This document shows positions 20,735-39,975 of a stretch of 54,813 bases of DNA, piece by piece (the first letter of the stretch is position 1; each line of letters opens with the position of its first letter). Made by a program: the position numbers and the translations under genes. The stretch covers positions 1 to 54,813 of the forward strand of contig JAQUPQ010000029.1 of the NCBI GenBank assembly GCA_028716525.1, written 5' to 3'. The notes beneath the pieces were generated by a model that did not search any database, was not told where the DNA came from, and saw only the letters and a program-made list of their open reading frames with translations. Source of the stretch: Terriglobia bacterium. Its GTDB lineage: Bacteria; Acidobacteriota; Terriglobia; JAIQFV01.

Positions 20735-20823
20735 GCCCAGTTCCCTTTCTTGTGAACATCCTAAGACCGCGTCCCGGGAAAACCGGCGTGTACAAAAATC
20801 AATGTCCGTTGACCTGGTGCAGG

Positions 20824-21144
20824 ATTCTATCGTCCCGCACGGCGTATAGGCGTCAAGCTAAGCAACGAAGGGATGATATTCATAAATTCCAGGCTCCAAG
20901 AATCAAATGCCAAATAAGCTCCAAAATCCAAATCCCAAACCAAGTGACCATTGCTCACTCCCAGTCCCACAGAGTAATTTTGTCGTGACTTTGAAACAAG
21001 ACGATGGCTTTCACAGCGTGGTTTGGCAACTTGGAATTTGGAACCTGGTGATTATTTGGAGTTTGGGCATTGGACCTTGGAATTTATTCATGTGTGTGTT
21101 GCTCCCTTAGGTTGACGCGCAAGCGCAGGGCGGGACGACAGAAT
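20824..21144. mobile_element. MITE-like element, copy 1
   Basis: A segment of about 320 bases has long imperfect terminal inverted repeats: the left begins ATTCTATCGTCCCGC and continues GGCGTCAAGCTAAGCAAC; the right end is the inverse of AATTCTGTCGTCCCGC with GCGTCAACCTAAGGGAGCAAC. The interior is about 94-95% identical to copy 2 at 36641-36960. The interior is itself roughly self-complementary (CCAGGCTCCAAG.. against ..CTTGGAATTTGG). There is no transposase gene inside. Confidence 0.7.
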
Positions 21145-21207
21145 TCTCTCTGAAACCGGAGTGCTTATTCGGCGCAGCCGTCCATTATGTGGTGATCGAG
21201 CTCAAGA

Positions 21208-28058: not shown

Positions 28059-28091
28059 ACAAAGAGCAATCCCAGTCGAGATGACCCGAGC

Positions 28092-28268
28092 GATGGAAAA
28101 ATTCCAGGCTCCAAGCACCAAAATCCAAATAAGCTCCACCTTCCAAGATTCAAATTTCACGGAAAACTTATGGGATGGCGAATTTCAAGTCTAGCCCTGG
28201 CTGGATTTTGGAATTTGGTGTTTGGGATTTATTTGGACTTTGGATTTTGGAGCTTGGGATTTATGCTG
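28092..28268. repeat. Word-repeat hairpin (TTCCAAGCTCCAA / TTTGGAATTTGG type)
   Basis: The left arm (AATTCCAGGCTCCAAGCACC, AAAATCCAAATAAGCTCC) is inverted on the right as repeated TTTGGAATTTGGTGTTTGGG and TTTGGATTTTGGAGCTTGGG. The same words occur in the interior of the two MITE-like copies, but the terminal repeats are missing here. It separates aroF from the AI-2E-type transporter gene. Confidence 0.6.
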
Positions 28269-30898: not shown

Positions 30899-33800
30899 AT
30901 GCGATGCCATTCTTTCTCCAACAAAAGGTCCTTGCGAAAGCAATCCCGCTCCCTTTCCCTCCACCGAATGCTCCTGTTCCTAACGGTTCTCTTCATCCAT
31001 CCAGGCATTTTCAAAGCTGCGAGCGATATCGTCATTAGTCAAGTTTATGGCGGCGGAGGAAATTCCGGGGCCACCTATAAAAACGATTTCATTGAAATAT
31101 TCAATCGCGGCAGTATTGCGATGAGTTTATCTGGTTGGTCGGTGCAGTACACGTCAGCAACTGGAGCGGCATGGCAAGTAACCAACTTGACAGGCGTCAG
31201 CTTGCAGCCGGGTCAGTACTACCTCATTCAGGAGGCACAGGGGAGCGGAGGAAGCGCTAATCTGCCGACACCGGATGCCATTGGGACCATCACGATGGGT
31301 GCAACCTCCGGAAAAGTGGCATTGGTCAAGAACACTACAGCCTTGACGGGCGCTTGTCCCACAGCAGCCTCCATCGCCGATCTGGTTGGATTTGGAAACA
31401 CGGCGAGTTGCTTTGAGGGCAGCGGAGCGGCGCCCGCACCGGGCAACACGACGGCAATCATTCGCAATTCCAACGGTTGTGCCGACACCCACAACAACTC
31501 CTCTGACTTTGCGACGGGGACACCTAATCCACGAAATTCATCTTCAACGGTGCAGGTGTGCGGCGGCGGATCATCGACAGATCCGTGCGGTGTTGGGACC
31601 GCCAACCCGTCGGGCGTGCTGCCGGGCGACACGGTTCTTCTGACCGTAATCGTCACACCGGGAACCAATCCCGCCAGCACGGGACTGGCCGTCATTGCTG
31701 ACTTGACGGCGATTGGAAATAGCCCCACCCAATCTTTATTCGACGATGGCACACACGGCGACACCTCTGCTGGCGACAACGTTTTTTCCGTGGCCGTTTC
31801 CATTGCGCCAGGCGTTTCGGCCGGTGCGAAAAGTCTCTCTTTTATTGTCAGCGACAGCCAGGCGCGAAGTTCAACCGGATCAATCTCACTCACCATTCAA
31901 TCGCCACCTTTGGCGATTCATTCCATCCAAGGAAATGGATTGACTTCGCCTTTTACCGGAACGGTGGTCACCACGACGGGAATCGTCACCGCGGTGAAGA
32001 ATAACGGCTTCTTCTTGCAAACGCCCGATTCAGCCGTGGACGGCGATTCTGACACCTCCGAGGGAATTTTCGTTTTTACGGGTAGTTCACCGCCCTCAGC
32101 CGCTGCAGTTGGAAATTCAGTGAATGTGTCGGGCACAGTTCAGGAATTCGTTCCTGCTTCGGATCCCGCAAGTCCGCCGAGCACTGAGATCGGCGGGACC
32201 ATCAGCGTCGTTTTGAATTCGACAGGGAATTCACTTCCGGCCGCTATTCCATTGACAGGGGCCGACCTGAGCCCTAGCGGTTCAGCGGAACAACTTGAAC
32301 GGCTTGAAGGAATGCGCGTGCACGTCGAGTCTTTGACCGTTGTTTCTCCGACGCAAGGGAATATTGATGAACCTACAGCGACCGCTGTTTCCACGGGAGT
32401 GTTTTACGGAGTGATAACAGGAACCACTCGTCCCTTTCGAGAACCGGGCATCGATATTTTGAGCGCGCTTCCATCCGGCGCGCCCTGTTGTGTGCCGCGC
32501 TTTGACGGCAATCCTGAGCGGATTCGAATCGACAGCGATGGTCAAGTCGGCGCCAGCCCGCTTGAAGTCGCCGCGGGCGCGGTCCTTACGAGTCTGACGG
32601 GTGTTTTAGATTATGCTTCGAGAACTTACACCATCCTCCCCGATCCTGCTGCGCCTCCAACAGTCACGGGGATGGCTTCAGCAACGGCAGTACCGGCGCC
32701 TTCGAGCGATGAGTTCACGGTGGCCTCCTTCAATCTCGGACGGTTTTTCGATGCGGCTGATGACCCTCTCATCACGGAGCCGGTGCTCAGTTCGACGGCC
32801 TTCAACACGCGTTTGAGCAAGTCTTCTCTTGCCTTTCGCATGGTGATGCAATTGCCCGACATTGTTGGCGTAGAGGAAGTGGAAAATCTTGCGGCCCTCG
32901 AAAGCTTGGCGCAGAAGATAAATGATGATGCCGTGGCCGCGGGGATGACAAATCCTCAATATCAAGCTTTTCTGGAAGAAGGGAACGACCCGGGCGGCAT
33001 CGATGTCGGCTTCCTTGTCAGAAGCACCCGTGTCGCCGTAGTCGACGTGGTTCAGCAGGGGAAAGAAGAAACGTATGTCAACCCGTTGACCGGAGGGTCG
33101 GAGCTTCTGAATGACCGGCCGCCGCTAGTGCTTCGCGTCAACGTGACGTCTCCAGGTGGAGCGCTGTTCCCGGTGACCGTCATTGTGAATCACCTCCGCT
33201 CGATGTCGGCGATTGACGATCCAATCGACGGTCCGCGAGTTCGCGCCAAGCGCGCCGCCCAAGCGGAGTATCTGGCGAATCTCCTCCAAGCCCGACAAAC
33301 CGCAAATCCGGCCGAACAATTGATCGTGCTCGGGGACTTCAACGCTTTCCCCTTTAATGATGGATATGTCGATGTGATGGGGACACTGGTCGGCGCTCCT
33401 GCGCCCGGCCATGAAGTCGTGGTATCTACGCGCGATCTCGTCGAGCCGGATTTGAAGGTTCTTCTCAATTCCATCCCGGAGTCGGAGAGATATTCCTATT
33501 TACTCGACGGCAATGCTCAGGTGCTGGATCACGTTCTCGTTACTTCGAACCTGCAATCGCGCCTGCGCCGATTCGTGTTTGCCCGCAACAACGCCGATTT
33601 CCCTGAATCCTATCGGAACGATCCCGGGCGACCCGAACGCGTCAGCGATCATGACACGCCGGTTGCTTACTTCACTCTTCCAGCGCTTCTCGCCACGATG
33701 ACAAGCCTCGTGAGTTCAGCAAACCCATCACCCTTTGGCCAACCCGCCACTTTTTTGGCGACGGTGAATCCGGTTTCATCTGGGAGCACAACGCCGAGCG

Positions 33801-36106
33801 GCGCAGTGACGTTTTCCGATGGAGCCCAAATGTTGGGGACAGCTCCCCTGCAGCAAGGAACGGCCCGCCTCACCGTATCTACGCTTGCGATCGGACCACA
33901 TTCGATTACAGCCAATTATTCAGGTGACGCGACCTTCTCGCCCAGCAGCTCAAACCCGATTGCTGAAAATGTAATTGCGGCAGCCGACTTGGGGGTAACC
34001 ATCAACTCCGCGGCTTCATCGGTGAGAGGAGGGCAAACAATCAGTTTTCAAATCGACATAGCGAACAAGGGGCCCAATTCGGCCACGCAAGTGAGCCTAA
34101 ATGCAGATCTGCCTGATCACACTCTGTTCGCATCGTTGAATGCGCCGACAGATTGGTCGTGCACCGTTCCTGGGATTGGGTCAAGAGGAACAATCCGTTG
34201 TTCCACGAATGGCCTGGGCGCAACGCAGATCTCGCAAATCAATGTGACTGCACGGTTGGATTGTTCGTTTCCCGATAAGGGTCACATGACGAGTACCGCC
34301 TCGATCAGCGGCAATGAATTTGATCCGAATGGGACGAATAATCTGAGTAATGCCACGTGGGTGGCTTCAAATCCTGTAAGCATTTCTCCAGTGAACCAAA
34401 CGTTTGCGGCGAATGGCGGATGGGGAAGCGTTCGAGTGACGGCGCCGCTGGAATGCAATTGGCAGACGAACAGCAGTACCGCTTGGATTTCCGTGCGCTC
34501 CGGTGCGTTGGGTGTCGGGGATGGAACGGTTGATTATATTGTGACAGCGAACCATCAATCGAATTGGCGAAGCGGGACCTTGGGGGTTGGGGGAAAAACA
34601 TTCACGGTCATGCAGGCCGGCGGGTCGGGCGCCGGGGCCCAACTTTCAGTTTCGATTCCCGCAGGGGGAGTGGCCACATTTGCTACAAGTAACAGCACGG
34701 ATGATGTGAAAGGAGGATATGCAGTCATCTCACCCAATTTCAACAAGCGCTCGCTAAATCAGTTTGCGGGAGGAACATCCGAAAACCTCTTTGGAGTTGC
34801 TGTGATCTCGACCTCTCGGAATGGCATTGTCACGAGCGAAGCCGGAGTTTCGCGCGGTGTAATTACAAAGAAGGCGCGTTTAATGGTGCAGTTCGAAGAA
34901 GGTACAGAGCCGGATGATGGCGCGGATACGCCGGTTCCCGTCAATACCGGCATGGCACTAGTGAATTACGGCGTCGACACTGCCCACATCACATTTCAGT
35001 TGTTTGATCCCGGCGGAATGTTGCTCGTGACCGGGCAAGGCAGCCTGGAGTCCGGCGAGCATCGGGCATTTTTCATTGATGAGCTTCCCCGCCTGGCGCC
35101 GGATTTTGTGCTTCCTGTGGATTTCGCCTCCACAACGAAAATAGGATCTTTGGAAATCCAAAGCGACCAGCCGCTGGCCGTAACAGCTCTGCGATTGGTC
35201 CAGAATGAACGGGGCGATTCTTTGCTCACCACCACACCGGTCGCCGATATAAATGTCGCCCAGGCAACACAGAGGGCATACATCCCGCATTTTGTAGACG
35301 GGGGTGGATATCGCACCGTGCTGTATCTTTTGAATACCTCCGGCGGAGTGGAGTCCGGGGAAGTCAAGTTTTATGACGGAAACGGCGTTTTCCAGGACAT
35401 CCATGTACGAGGCCGTGTGCCGATGGCTCCGGGTGTTTTTGCTTACAACATACCTGCAGGCGGCTTGTGGGTCTTTGAGAGCGAATCAATACAAGAAGAA
35501 ACTCTTACGGGGTCCATCCACATCGAGCCCCATGCCTTTTCACCCGTCCCAAAAGTTGCTGGCCTGTTGAGGTCCTCCACTGGTGGTGTCGTTGTAACCG
35601 AAACCGGCTTGGCACCAGCTGAACCCTCCACACATGTCCGACTCTTCGTTGACCGTAGCCGCAACCACAACACCGGTGTGGCTTTTGCAGTGCCCGACGC
35701 TTCTCCATTGCTGCTTCATCTGAATGCATATATGGATGACGGGAACACTCCGTGGGGTTCCGCAGTGTTGGACGTGCCACCACGGGGTCATGCCGCGAAG
35801 TTTGTCGACGAAATAATTTCTTCCTTGCCCTCAAACTTCGTCGGTGTCCTGGATGTGACCTCCGACAGGCCCTTCGTCGCACTCACTTTGCGTTCTTTGG
35901 CGAATGCTCGGGGTGATTCGTTGCTGACTACATTTCCGGTGGCAGCCTATGGGCAATCCCCTCCGTTTCCGATTTTCTTCCCACAGATTGCTGACGGCGG
36001 AGGATTCATGACGGAATTCATTTTGCTCAATCCCACCGGGGCGCTCGAGTCTACCATCAGCCTTTTCGGCGATGAGGGGAAGCCACTGGAGACATTTAAG
36101 AAATGA
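30899..36106 (+). CDS. Giant secreted endonuclease-like protein (LTD, EEP, Ig-like, DUF11, BACON, repeats)
   Basis: The 1735-residue product has a long basic N-region and a signal helix (MLLFLTVLFIHPGIFKAAS). Domains in order: lamin-tail-like beta domain (about 43-190, DIVISQVYGGGGNSGATYKND..); Ig-like linker; an OB-like region; endonuclease/exonuclease/phosphatase fold (about 605-925) with FNLGRFF, GVEEVEN, VNHLRSM, GDFNAFP, LDHVLV and VSDHDTPVAYF, which supply the catalytic residues; a Big_3-type Ig domain (about 930-1025); DUF11 (about 1027-1155); BACON (about 1160-1245); and repeats with DGGGYRTVLYLLN and DGGGFMTEFILLNP. It resembles ExeM/NucH-type extracellular nucleases. The last repeat stops about 30 residues earlier than the equivalent internal one, so the C-terminus may be truncated. 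Confidence 0.82.
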   Translation: MRCHSFSNKRSLRKQSRSLSLHRMLLFLTVLFIHPGIFKAASDIVISQVYGGGGNSGATYKNDFIEIFNRGSIAMSLSGWSVQYTSATGAAWQVTNLTGVSLQPGQYYLIQEAQGSGGSANLPTPDAIGTITMGATSGKVALVKNTTALTGACPTAASIADLVGFGNTASCFEGSGAAPAPGNTTAIIRNSNGCADTHNNSSDFATGTPNPRNSSSTVQVCGGGSSTDPCGVGTANPSGVLPGDTVLLTVIVTPGTNPASTGLAVIADLTAIGNSPTQSLFDDGTHGDTSAGDNVFSVAVSIAPGVSAGAKSLSFIVSDSQARSSTGSISLTIQSPPLAIHSIQGNGLTSPFTGTVVTTTGIVTAVKNNGFFLQTPDSAVDGDSDTSEGIFVFTGSSPPSAAAVGNSVNVSGTVQEFVPASDPASPPSTEIGGTISVVLNSTGNSLPAAIPLTGADLSPSGSAEQLERLEGMRVHVESLTVVSPTQGNIDEPTATAVSTGVFYGVITGTTRPFREPGIDILSALPSGAPCCVPRFDGNPERIRIDSDGQVGASPLEVAAGAVLTSLTGVLDYASRTYTILPDPAAPPTVTGMASATAVPAPSSDEFTVASFNLGRFFDAADDPLITEPVLSSTAFNTRLSKSSLAFRMVMQLPDIVGVEEVENLAALESLAQKINDDAVAAGMTNPQYQAFLEEGNDPGGIDVGFLVRSTRVAVVDVVQQGKEETYVNPLTGGSELLNDRPPLVLRVNVTSPGGALFPVTVIVNHLRSMSAIDDPIDGPRVRAKRAAQAEYLANLLQARQTANPAEQLIVLGDFNAFPFNDGYVDVMGTLVGAPAPGHEVVVSTRDLVEPDLKVLLNSIPESERYSYLLDGNAQVLDHVLVTSNLQSRLRRFVFARNNADFPESYRNDPGRPERVSDHDTPVAYFTLPALLATMTSLVSSANPSPFGQPATFLATVNPVSSGSTTPSGAVTFSDGAQMLGTAPLQQGTARLTVSTLAIGPHSITANYSGDATFSPSSSNPIAENVIAAADLGVTINSAASSVRGGQTISFQIDIANKGPNSATQVSLNADLPDHTLFASLNAPTDWSCTVPGIGSRGTIRCSTNGLGATQISQINVTARLDCSFPDKGHMTSTASISGNEFDPNGTNNLSNATWVASNPVSISPVNQTFAANGGWGSVRVTAPLECNWQTNSSTAWISVRSGALGVGDGTVDYIVTANHQSNWRSGTLGVGGKTFTVMQAGGSGAGAQLSVSIPAGGVATFATSNSTDDVKGGYAVISPNFNKRSLNQFAGGTSENLFGVAVISTSRNGIVTSEAGVSRGVITKKARLMVQFEEGTEPDDGADTPVPVNTGMALVNYGVDTAHITFQLFDPGGMLLVTGQGSLESGEHRAFFIDELPRLAPDFVLPVDFASTTKIGSLEIQSDQPLAVTALRLVQNERGDSLLTTTPVADINVAQATQRAYIPHFVDGGGYRTVLYLLNTSGGVESGEVKFYDGNGVFQDIHVRGRVPMAPGVFAYNIPAGGLWVFESESIQEETLTGSIHIEPHAFSPVPKVAGLLRSSTGGVVVTETGLAPAEPSTHVRLFVDRSRNHNTGVAFAVPDASPLLLHLNAYMDDGNTPWGSAVLDVPPRGHAAKFVDEIISSLPSNFVGVLDVTSDRPFVALTLRSLANARGDSLLTTFPVAAYGQSPPFPIFFPQIADGGGFMTEFILLNPTGALESTISLFGDEGKPLETFKK

Positions 36107-36344: not shown

Positions 36345-36569
36345 AGTCCCCCGCGGGGGACGCAGGCAGCGGCTTTTGGTGCGCTTGGAAAAGACCGACT
36401 TCGTTATGCGCATCAGGATGCCGCATTTGCCCGTTGGGCTTGGGCGCCGGCATCGAATTCTCCAAGATCGAATCTTAGATTGCCCTTTCAGGGCAAAAAA
36501 CCTAATTGAGAGAGGTTTTCGATCCCAGGGCGATGCCCTGGGCTATTGAAGATTGCCCTTGCAGGGCAA
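36345..36569. repeat. Second palindrome cluster (CCCTTTCAGGG / CCCGCGGGGG type)
   Basis: AGTCCCCCGCGGGGGAC at 36345-36361, TTGCCCTTTCAGGGCAA at 36480-36496, CCCAGGGCGATGCCCTGGG at 36524-36542 and TTGCCCTTGCAGGGCAA at 36553-36569. The units share their cores with the cluster at 270-366, 36 kb away. Confidence 0.6.
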
Positions 36570-36590
36570 TTCGGTTATTGGTTGTGGCGT

Positions 36591-36640
36591 AGTGAACATT
36601 ACAATTTCCAGCGGCAGAATGAGCATTACATTTTCTGGTA
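36591..36640. mobile_element. Possible IS end remnant
   Basis: Two direct repeats of the type GAACATTACAATTTCC and GAGCATTACATTTTCT lie side by side, as is usual at the multiple-repeat ends of IS21-type elements. No transposase is present. It directly abuts the MITE-like copy 2. Confidence 0.3.
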
Positions 36641-36960
36641 GCCGGGATCCCGCGGAGCACATAGGCGTCAACCTAAGCAACGGAGGGATGATATTCATAA
36701 ATTCCAAGCTCCAAGAATCAAATGCCAAATAAGCTCCAAAATTCAAATCCCAAACCAAGTGACCATTGTTTACTCCCAGTCCCACAGAGTAATCTTGTCG
36801 TCACTTTGAAACAAGGCGATGGCTTTCACAGCGTGGTTTGGCAACTTGGAATTTGGAATTTGATGATTATTTGGAGGTTGGGCATTGGACCTTGGAATTT
36901 ATTCATGTACTTGTTGCTCCCTTAGGTTGACGCGTATGGGCGGAGCGGGGCTCGATTCTT
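36641..36960. mobile_element. MITE-like element, copy 2
   Basis: The left end carries CCCGCGGAGCACATAGGCGT then CAACCTAAGCAAC; the right end is the inverse with GTTGCTCCCTTAGGTTGACG. The interior from GGGATGATATTCATAAATTC onward is near-identical to copy 1 at 20824-21144, in the same orientation. A 67-codon frame is conserved in both copies, but 8 of its codons differ in amino acid against about four silent changes, so it is not under protein constraint. Confidence 0.7.
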
Positions 36961-37335
36961 CAGCACCAACCAATCTGAGTACGCATGTCCCGGGCTAGAG
37001 ATCTTGGGTCCGTTTGCGACGGACTTCGACAATCGGAATTGAGCCTTCTGTCTAGTGATATATGTCCAGGTGTGACGCCTTTTATGGTGCTTTTATGCCA
37101 AGAAACGGGCTATCGCCTGCAACGATTTCACCCTCTTGATTCATTGGAGGTCTCTGCGGATTTAAAGAGAATTGGTCCATCGAAATGAGTTAATGTTGGC
37201 ACGAAAAAATTTAGGTTAAATATCTATCAAGGGAGAAATGCCCGCCGTAATCCGAAGACGCGTGTATGCACCACCCAGCCTCTCGCGCTTCTTGCGACTC
37301 GACATTTCCTGCATGCGAAGTCTATTCTTATCCTC
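36961..37335. other. Intergenic region upstream of the helicase gene
   Basis: About 375 bases with no gene or clear promoter that I can support. Confidence 0.4.
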
Positions 37336-39975
37336 GTGTCCTTGAGGATTGATTCCGAAAAAAAGCTCATATCACTCAGCGTCAAAGAGGTGGCGGCGCT
37401 GATTGCCGGGCCGGGGGCCATTGATGACGTGGCTTACGGCGTGGCCCGCATGACGCTGGGCCGTCTGGCGCATGAGTCTTATCAGGCCGAGCGCGCGGGC
37501 GAAGATAAATCGTTTCGCAAAGAGTTCTCCGTCAACCATTCCCTCCGCGTCGAGGACTTTGAGGTTTTAATCCGCGGGCGCATCGACGGTGTCTCAGAGC
37601 GCGACGGACAAACGCTGGTCGAGGAAATCAAGTCCACGCTCCGCACCCGCCAGGAACTGCTCCGGTACGACAGCACGAGTTTTGAGCGCTACAAACTGCA
37701 GCTCCAACTCTATCTCTTCTTTTTGTGGGCGAGCGGCATCAAGAATCTCAAAGGCACTCTGATTTTCATCAGCCTGGTCGACGACAGCCGCTATTCTTTT
37801 CCCATCGATTTTGATCCCTCCACCGTTGAATCCCTTCTCGAGGAAGCCCTGCGGCGCATTCTGACCGATTGGCGCGCCGAACAACAACGAGCCGTCCGAA
37901 AGCGCGAACTGGCTGCAAAAATAAGGTTTCCGTTTGCAGAAATGCGGCCCCACCAGCCTCAAATGATGGAGCGATATGAGGAGGCCTTGCTCCAACGGAA
38001 AGATGCTATGGTGTGTGCACCGACGGGCATTGGAAAAACCGTCGCGGCCCTGATGCCGGCGCTCCGATTTGCGCTCCTCCAAAATAAAAAGATTTTCTTC
38101 ATCACTTCAAAAACCACGCAGCAACAGTTGGTTCTCGATACCGTGAGGCAAATTCTTTCCACCGCCGGGGCCGAAAGCGAATCGCTGGGATTCAACGTCC
38201 TGGTCTTGCGCGCCAAAGAAAAAATGTGCGCCAACGAGGTGTGCTTCTGTCATCCCGACTTCTGCGAGTATTCCAAGAATTATTTCGTCAATCTTTCCGA
38301 ATCCAAATTGGTTGAGCATTTTTCTCAGCAGGCTTTGATGTTGCCGGATGAGATTTATCAGAAGGGCAGCACTCAGGGCGTGTGTCCGTTTGAATTGTCG
38401 CTGGAACTGGTGGATCGCGCGGATATGGTGATTTGCGATTACAACTACGTCTACGATCCGTGGGTGGCGCTGCAGTTGTTTTCGATGGGCGAACCTTATA
38501 ACAACTGCCTGCTCATCATCGATGAAGCTCACAATCTTTACTCCCGCGGTCGCGAATACTACTCGCCGGAACTGGAACGACAGCCCATCCAGATGCTGAA
38601 AGACTGGGCGGAATCCAAGCGGGCGCAGTTGGAGGAAGCGGATTCCGGTGGCACTGCGGAAGAGCCTACGGCGTTGGCGCTGAAGAGACATCTATCCAAG
38701 GCTCAGCGGGCTAAGCCTCGACAGGATCGATTGAAATTTGAAGAAGTGGAAGGAGGCAGGGATGTTGCTCTATTTGATCGATTGAGCGCCTTTTTTGCGG
38801 CCTTGGAAGATTATTTTGAACGATTGCACTCCTCCGGATCGGAAGAAGAAAGCCTACCCTCGGAGGAGAGAAAAAGCTTCATTACGCTCGACATCCGCTT
38901 CCTGACGAAACAGTGGTTTGAGCTGGAAGCGATGATGCTCGATTATTTTATTTTTCGAAAGCAGCGGAAAGAGATACGGCCCGACGATCCCTTCATTGAT
39001 TTTTATTTCAATTTCTCGCGTTTCCTGAGTGTGGCCACGATCGGCGGCGAGGAATTTTCGACAATATATGACGGTCTGGAGAACGCCGAGCGAATCAAGA
39101 TTGTGTGCAAGGATCCCTCCCGGCAACTGGCGGAACGAACACGCGGTTTTTATAACGCCCTGGCCATGTCGGCGACGCTCGCGCCCCTGGAATTCTTCCG
39201 GGATGTCCTGGGGTTTGAAAAATCGCGCACTCTTTCGTTGAGCCTGCCCTCGCCGTTTCCTCCCGAGAATCGCTTGATTGCGATTGTCCCGGAGGTGTTG
39301 ACAACCTACACGCAACGCGCGCGATTTTATGAAAAAATCGCCCGCCTCATTGAGGACGTTGTTCAGGTGCGGCAGGGAAATTATTTTGTTTTCTTTCCTT
39401 CATTCGATTTCCTGCTGGCGGTTCATAAGCATTTGGATCTCCCGGATTTTCAGGTGGTCATCCAGCAACGGGTCATGAACGACGGCGCCCGGGCCGCAGT
39501 GTTGCGCGCCTTGAGCCGCGCGCTGAACGGCGGTGGGGCAGGTGATGGCGATTCGTGCGTGTCGAAACCCACGGCGGTTCTGGCTGTGCAAGGCGGAATT
39601 TTTGCCGAGGGCGTCGATTATCCCGGCGAATCACTGATCGGCGCGATCCTGGTGGGCCCGGGGTTACCCCGCGTGACCTTTGAGCAGGAATTGATGCGGC
39701 GCTATTACGACGAGAAATTCGCCGACGTCGACGGGGGTGAGCGATCGCGCGGTTTTGCCTATGCCTATCTGTATCCCGGAATGAACCGTGTGGTTCAATC
39801 CGCCGGGCGCGTCATTCGCAGTGACACCGATCGGGGAGTGATCGTGCTGCTCGACCGCCGCTTTGCCCAGTCGCCCTACATCGATCTCCTGCCACCGCAT
39901 TGGTTCAAATACTCGCCGCAGGAACTCATTGTCAACGATGTGGTGGGGGCGCTGAAGAAATTCTGGAAGGAATAG
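37336..39975 (+). CDS. XPD/DinG-type iron-sulfur helicase fused to an N-terminal PD-(D/E)XK nuclease
   Basis: The 879-residue protein starts at GTG 37336. Residues 1-180 look like a Cas4/RecB-type nuclease domain: an N-terminal HExxx-like helix (GRLAHESYQAE), then RGRIDGVSERDGQTLVEEIKST, giving the D and E-x-K of the active site, and QLQLYLFFLW. The helicase follows with Walker A CAPTGIGKT (about 226-234), an iron-sulfur cysteine set (MCANEVCFCHPDFC at about 296-309 plus CPF near 349), DEAH in LLIIDEAHNLY (about 394), then MSATLAP, and the C-terminal GIFAEGVDYPGE and QSAGRVIRSDTDRG motifs. It would unwind and trim DNA 5'-3', probably in repair. Confidence 0.85.
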   Translation: MSLRIDSEKKLISLSVKEVAALIAGPGAIDDVAYGVARMTLGRLAHESYQAERAGEDKSFRKEFSVNHSLRVEDFEVLIRGRIDGVSERDGQTLVEEIKSTLRTRQELLRYDSTSFERYKLQLQLYLFFLWASGIKNLKGTLIFISLVDDSRYSFPIDFDPSTVESLLEEALRRILTDWRAEQQRAVRKRELAAKIRFPFAEMRPHQPQMMERYEEALLQRKDAMVCAPTGIGKTVAALMPALRFALLQNKKIFFITSKTTQQQLVLDTVRQILSTAGAESESLGFNVLVLRAKEKMCANEVCFCHPDFCEYSKNYFVNLSESKLVEHFSQQALMLPDEIYQKGSTQGVCPFELSLELVDRADMVICDYNYVYDPWVALQLFSMGEPYNNCLLIIDEAHNLYSRGREYYSPELERQPIQMLKDWAESKRAQLEEADSGGTAEEPTALALKRHLSKAQRAKPRQDRLKFEEVEGGRDVALFDRLSAFFAALEDYFERLHSSGSEEESLPSEERKSFITLDIRFLTKQWFELEAMMLDYFIFRKQRKEIRPDDPFIDFYFNFSRFLSVATIGGEEFSTIYDGLENAERIKIVCKDPSRQLAERTRGFYNALAMSATLAPLEFFRDVLGFEKSRTLSLSLPSPFPPENRLIAIVPEVLTTYTQRARFYEKIARLIEDVVQVRQGNYFVFFPSFDFLLAVHKHLDLPDFQVVIQQRVMNDGARAAVLRALSRALNGGGAGDGDSCVSKPTAVLAVQGGIFAEGVDYPGESLIGAILVGPGLPRVTFEQELMRRYYDEKFADVDGGERSRGFAYAYLYPGMNRVVQSAGRVIRSDTDRGVIVLLDRRFAQSPYIDLLPPHWFKYSPQELIVNDVVGALKKFWKE

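Follow-up and report, generated by a model that had tools for sequence, protein, structure and literature searches.

The element and its surroundings

The window, the whole stretch of 54,813 nucleotides analysed here, holds two of the four full copies of a 285-bp non-coding element. Among 101 neighbourhood genomes, including the genome that holds the window (G000), full copies were confined to G000. Two related genomes, G001 and G002, were used for comparison; G002 belongs to another genus of the same family, and all three are draft assemblies (C and L below denote contigs and loci). The features in the window are as follows.

20824..20844, left half of a split REP hairpin at copy 1 (REP-family match), with direct repeat CGCACGGCG at 20836-20844
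20842-21126, copy 1 in its 285-bp form, including the adjoining GCG/CGC
20845..21123, + strand, copy 1 of the MITE from CAT (here TAT) to ATG (here AAG), from the copy alignment
20845..20862, + strand, left terminal inverted repeat of copy 1, TATAGGCGTCAAGCTAAG (family form CATNNGCGTCAACCTAAG)
20882..21094, interior A+T-rich imperfect hairpin of TTCCAA/TTGGAA words, from fold and repeats
21106..21123, - strand, right terminal inverted repeat of copy 1, CTTGCGCGTCAACCTAAG on the - strand
21124..21144, right half of the split REP hairpin at copy 1, with direct repeat CGCAGGGCG at 21124-21132
36620..36656, + strand, left target half of copy 2, a GTAG-type REP and then loop GGA
36660..36938, + strand, copy 2 of the MITE from CAT to ATG (285-bp form 36657-36941)
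36942..36962, + strand, right target half of copy 2, loop GGA and then GCGGGGCTCGATTCTTCAGC

The window also encodes a protein of 1735 aa (30899-36106, +) with lamin-tail, endonuclease/exonuclease/phosphatase, Big_3_5 and DUF11 domains, and an XPD/DinG-like helicase of 879 aa (DEAD_2, Helicase_C_2; 37336-39975, +) preceded by a weak PD-(D/E)XK nuclease match.

An earlier sequence-only reading had described a gene-free, MITE-like element with inverted ends of about 45 bases and a partner copy about 15.8 kb away. The inverted ends are present (20824-20868 and about 21100-21144), the interval from 20735 to 21207 contains no ORF of 80 aa or more, and the partner region (36648-36949) is spaced 15,815 from copy 1. 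The interior identity of 94-95% given there was slightly too high, the measured values being 93.8% without the end 21 nt and 92.6% over the full 285 bp. The genomic search that it proposed yielded two extra full copies, on contigs C6 (95% identity) and C36 (94%). All four copies have the same length in the alignment, with pairwise identities of 92.6-97.2%; the element is short, non-coding and present in several near-identical copies at unrelated places. Terminal inverted repeats of the form CATNNGCGTCAACCTAAG are found, with few changes, at both ends of these four copies and of 19 related copies in G002. The name MITE-like is borne out by the four full copies, their terminal inverted repeats, the target duplications and the uninterrupted copies of the target repeat described below.

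The region 20824-21144 is one long imperfect hairpin with a strong fold on either strand, its z being about -7.7 against 100 shuffles, none of which folded as well. The interior was correctly described as a large imperfect hairpin. The repeated TTGGAATTTGG-like words reported within it are real; they are degenerate, 7 nt long (TTTGGAA and similar), and recur mostly at 7-nt spacing in 12 other G000 hairpins counted.

The outer ends are split REP hairpins

When the copies were aligned with their flanks, identity ended at TCCCGCnnn and the sequence beyond was private to each copy. Left and right flanks are nevertheless still complementary in copy 1, C6 and C36, despite differing between copies. 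Three bases remain unpaired within the long inverted repeat: GGA/GGA in copy 2, AAG/AAG in C6, ACG/AGG in copy 1 and TCG/CTT in C36. Direct repeats within an inverted repeat pointed to a target duplication. In copy 1 the direct repeats CGCACGGCG and CGCAGGGCG differ by one mismatch, and the right half shares a stretch of 15 identical bases with a REP on contig C14. In copy 2 the left flank (36620-36653) equals an intact REP (L223, contig C34) at 34 of 34 bases up to the loop, and by eye the right half, GCGGGGCTCGATTCTTCAGC, resembles the tail of a CGTC-like REP (GCGGGACTCGGTCTTCAGC). As the left flank thus belongs to one REP family (GGTAGCCGGGATCCCGCnnnGCGGGATCCCGG, below) and the right flank looks more like the tail of another ((n)TCTGTCGTCCCGCnnnGCGGGACT), copy 2 may be a recombinant or be seated in a hybrid REP.

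The match of a left flank to an intact REP, together with the copy-specific outer arms, assigns about 21 of the 45 end bases to the target, which leaves the others to the element. The outer part of each 45-base end is therefore a pre-existing REP-type hairpin split at its 2-3 nt loop. The 'long complex terminal inverted repeats' of the sequence-only reading are real as inverted ends, but about half of each is the REP hairpin arm of the target; the outer 21 bases or so, which had been counted as element, vary by copy and have intact relatives elsewhere in G000. This also corrects the reading of the two motifs quoted for the ends: GCGTCAACCTAAGGGAG is the terminal repeat of the element itself, and ATTCTATCGTCCCGC is part of the target hairpin.

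The motif TCCCGCNNNGCGGGA occurs at 43 sites in G000, against none for the reversed control, and these include at least two hairpin families, (n)TCTGTCGTCCCGCnnnGCGGGACT and GGTAGCCGGGATCCCGCnnnGCGGGATCCCGG. Hairpins of the (n)TCTGTCGTCCCGCnnnGCGGGACT family bracket Y1 transposase genes at L033 and L034. The target hairpins, with GGTAGCC or CGTC at one end, are similar to the CGTC- and GTAG-tagged REPs described by Di Nocera et al. 2013 (PMC3733652). That paper reports CGTC REPs as unlinked to transposases, whereas the CGTC-like ones in G000, which have a 3-nt loop and a stem of GTCCCGC, border Y1 transposase genes at two loci. At these two loci (L033, C5:74792 region; L034, C19:23113 region) the CGTC-like REPs form arrays around the transposase genes. 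Further REP-like hairpins, CCCAGGGCGATGCCCTGGG and TTGCCCTTTCAGGGCAA, lie beside copy 2 at 36480-36580.

A sister family and the direct repeats

A search of G002 with the end motif gave 51 hits, against 2 for the control, and these make 19 pairs, 18 of 268-285 bp and one of 159 bp. The interior of this family is unrelated to that of the window's element and is likewise palindromic. The four G000 and 19 G002 copies gave 23 copies in which direct repeats could be tested. An exact direct repeat of 9-10 bp centred on the hairpin tip is present in 13 of the 23, and 18 have one with at most one mismatch. Over 20,000 permutations with shuffled pairing the mean was 1.4 and the maximum 7, the observed 13 never being reached, and cross-pairing of flanks between copies gave a repeat in 20 of 506 combinations. 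Outside the repeat the flanks also pair copy by copy (121 of 207 at positions 4-12, against a permutation mean of 73.6 and a maximum of 107).

Target site duplication is thus seen over the 23 copies taken together, and is weaker in the G000 family, in which one of four copies is exact at 9 bp. That copy is C6; copy 2 has equal loops and is exact over 7 bp, copy 1 has one mismatch, and the loops of C36 are unequal. Four G002 copies are without an equal loop: in L286 the two loops are reverse complements of each other, L290 has one mismatch, and L295 and L301_8672 are unequal. A single stem base differs in L289, L294 and L297. The sequence-only reading had asked for exact ends and target duplications; the ends could be set by alignment, and the duplications are clear in the 19-copy sister family but appear in only some of the element's own copies.

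Insertion is at one fixed point of the REP, its dyad axis, L301_8672 and L295 being degenerate. The stems hit at this point are unlike one another (CCCGC-nnn-GCGGG, CCCCGAT-nn-ATCGGGG, GTCCCGCC-TA-GGCGGGAC and CCCAGGGC-ATC-GCCCTGGG), and the clearest targets in G002, L287 and L301_3343, are palindromes whose arms measure about 20 bp. L296, in GTCCCGCC-TA-GGCGGGAC, and L298, in CCCCGAT-CC-ATCGGGG, have very similar bodies with GCG or TCG before CAT. These bases follow the stem of the target, which indicates that GCG and TCG derive from it. Since the bases adjoining the element vary with the target stem, the duplication exceeds the loop and amounts to 9 bp where the loop has 3 nt and 10 bp where it has 2 nt. 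A copy with a variant end on G002 contig C68 shows GGGCATCGCCC, an 11-bp repeat, and splits a hairpin of the CCCAGGGCGATGCCCTGGG type; of its two sisters, C53 has unlike loops and the right end of C45 was not seen.

Within the terminal repeat, bases 4-5 vary much more than the others do. The entropy of base 5 on one side of the G002 family is 1.57 bits; the average across 275 aligned columns is 0.21 bits, and only one column reaches 1.4 bits. Both bases vary in the window's family too (8 ends). They look as if they had been rewritten often; by eye, no link with the target loop was seen in the 23 copies.

G000 also contains relatives with one end only, in which the same terminal repeat follows TCCCGnnn, at L096 (C73:387, C73:3701), L097 (C8:54257), L099 (C10:41570) and L100 (C9:96410). 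Three of them resemble the left half of the G002 family, which suggests that G000 holds relics of that family. In G002, group II intron sequence (Rfam RF00029; L305 and L306, positions 54-132; also L303 and L304) interrupts copies of the family and apparently adjoins an interior hairpin; the contigs break there.

Search for a transposase and for empty sites

The element itself contains no DDE transposase. Ends were searched for in G000 (one end form), G001 and G002 with up to 3 mismatches, and across 299 genomes of the class with up to 2. Matches were found in 23 of the 299, with only 1-3 per genome outside G000 and G002, and in the other genomes the reversed control gave similar numbers. The transposase with matching ends for which the sequence-only reading had suggested looking did not appear: among the end-bearing loci examined in G000, G001, G002 and the 299-genome set, none brackets a transposase, and no parent transposon with the same ends was found in the three draft assemblies. 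PF01609 has no match in G000, 7 in G001 and 4 in G002, and even with 4 mismatches allowed, none of the 11 DDE_Tnp_1 loci of the latter two carries such ends as a pair. The exact end pattern had no match in GTDB contigs, a set from which the genomes' own records may have been left out.

G000 has ten Y1_Tnp matches. The terminal repeat occurs in none of the ten loci (4.3-6.3 kb each), whose surroundings show REPs and not the ends of the element, and a REP-associated tyrosine transposase (RAYT) was rejected as the mover. An integron attC or tyrosine-recombinase reading was dropped by reasoning, as no attC-like core is apparent by eye and the left and right repeats are equal.

The proposed check for an empty site in relatives produced no clean orthologous site. 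G001 is contiguous across L301 8540-9123 but is without a 583-bp block, so that element and REP are both missing; four G001 paralogues of the repeat around L296 have neither the element nor the target hairpin, and the C53 region offered no usable orthologous site. Intact REPs elsewhere, as paralogous empty sites, are thus the only good stand-in.

Origin and mode of movement

The copies, their ends, the direct repeats and the palindromic, REP-like target are seen directly. Taken together they make it very probable that the element is a MITE with ends CATNNGCGTCAACCTAAG that inserts into REP hairpins. Members of the IS231 subgroup of the IS4 family have a DDE transposase with a YREK motif, and IS231A prefers GGG(N)5CCC. 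The ends CATNNGCGTCAACCTAAG are counted from CAT, and their consensus (CATNNGCGTCAACCTAAG/A) fits 8 of 8 bases of the signature CAT-------AA--TAA, which Table 1 of PMC2266710 gives for the IS231 subgroup together with direct repeats of 10-12 bp; the same table lists ISH8 with CAT ends and 10-bp repeats. The repeats here, mostly 9 bp, with 10 bp at 2-nt loops and 11 bp in one variant copy, come near the 10-12 bp range, at about one helix turn. Because the ends match the IS231 signature and the duplication is close in length to that of the subgroup, mobilisation in trans by an IS231-like DDE transposase of the IS4 family, absent from the assembly, is likely. MIC231 cassettes of the Bacillus cereus group, which are without a transposase and moved in trans by IS231A (PMC3913671), are similar in these respects; unlike them, the present element has no gene at all, a palindromic body, a REP hairpin as target and a probably acidobacterial host. 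Of the named relatives of a protein encoded in the window, the top two come from Acidobacteria MAGs (71% and 69%), and lower-ranked hits are spread over several phyla.

Insertion at a fixed point of a REP has precedents. According to PMC1525189, ISRm22 (IS4 family) enters REPs at the axis of palindromy, some copies having unequal repeats ascribed to recombination, and REP-aimed insertion sequences (ISRm22, IS1397, IS621, ISPpu9) insert at one fixed REP point. The likeness to ISRm22 lies in this fixed-point insertion at the axis, but ISRm22 has 6-bp repeats and its own transposase, whereas here a MITE enters several unlike hairpins. The same source describes REP-aimed insertion sequences of the IS3, IS110, IS256 and IS5 families, so the same insertion could be the work of another DDE family, or the duplication could be of the 2-3 bp loop only, with GCG/CGC owned by the element. 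We consider this possible and somewhat doubtful. L294 and L297, in which the loops are equal but the stem base adjoining the loop differs, fit it, while the very similar bodies of L296 and L298, preceded by GCG or TCG as in their targets, and the CAT-AA-TAA register that fits IS231 do not.

A giant REPIN, in which a RAYT would move two inverted REPs and the outer arms would belong to the mobile unit, would also present inverted repeats ending REP-like on a long hairpin, and the literature describes REP dimers within longer palindromes (PMC3733652). The Y1_Tnp matches in the genome, the resemblance of the outer arms to GTAG- or CGTC-tagged REPs and their symmetry in three of the four copies could be read in this way. 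However, the outer arms are unlike between copies that are 92.6-97.2% identical inside, so conserved REP ends are wanting; the loop is a direct repeat, which is not expected of a Y1 enzyme; and none of the ten Y1 loci links a RAYT to the terminal repeat as a shared flanking repeat. The REP here is target and not mobile unit, and a giant REPIN is improbable. Still less credible, to the point of being very improbable, is a structured RNA or regulatory hairpin under selection, immobile and with compensatory changes in its outer stems. It would account for the strong fold on either strand and for outer stems that vary by copy yet remain paired, but the window has no Rfam match, the bases interrupting the stem are direct repeats in most copies, the arms match REPs elsewhere, and the same ends enclose two unrelated interiors.

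Under the MITE reading, a non-autonomous transposon with its own ends CATNNGCGTCAACCTAAG and, as its body, a palindromic repeat from the host genome would enter the dyad axis of a REP-type hairpin by cut-and-paste, using a DDE transposase supplied in trans. The tip would be duplicated over 9 bp (3-nt loop), 10 bp (2-nt loop) or, in one variant, 11 bp, and the halves of the split REP would then look like extensions of the terminal repeats. As the target is intergenic, insertion is probably cheap for the host. Insertion falls exactly on the dyad axis in at least four unlike stems, which prompts the speculative and rather unlikely suggestion that the transposase picks its target by shape, the extruded tip of GC-rich hairpins, and acquires palindromes already resident in the genome as cargo, hairpins thereby spreading within hairpins. 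With several unlike hairpins sharing one point of insertion, it becomes testable whether a transposase reads DNA shape rather than sequence.

MITEs, IS231 cassettes and REP-aimed insertion sequences are each already known separately. In the openly available literature, mostly outside the subscription journals, no listed title or opening abstract describes a MITE that targets REP loops and has IS231-like ends. When a REP loop holds a mini-transposon with palindromic cargo, the whole reads as one large element with complex ends, and such nested palindromes can be mistaken for REPINs or RNA genes.

The interior hairpin as cargo

Hairpins similar to the interior but without terminal repeats occur at many places in G000 (39 BLAST matches, a count that takes in both arms and the four full copies). 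Most simply, the window's element would have captured a copy of a resident palindrome. The cargo of the G002 family is a different set of palindromes; two families with shared ends and unrelated palindromic bodies mean that end and target specificity were kept while the cargo was swapped. Of 26 published papers that contain the TTGGAATTTGG word, the 20 listed were all on other subjects.

There is a wider family of long A+T-rich intergenic hairpins with arms of degenerate 7-nt tandem words (TTTGGAA, TTTGGAT, CTTGGAG). Sites include about 28080-28265 of the window and, elsewhere in G000, C1:155472, C46:3993, C13:18179, C7:48304, C3:17676, C71:198 and others; weak matches indicate the family in G001 and G002 too. 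At L027 (C90:5112 region of G000) a run of N lies beside tandem AAATTCCAAGTTGGATCT words, perhaps part of a larger tandem array of hairpin words.
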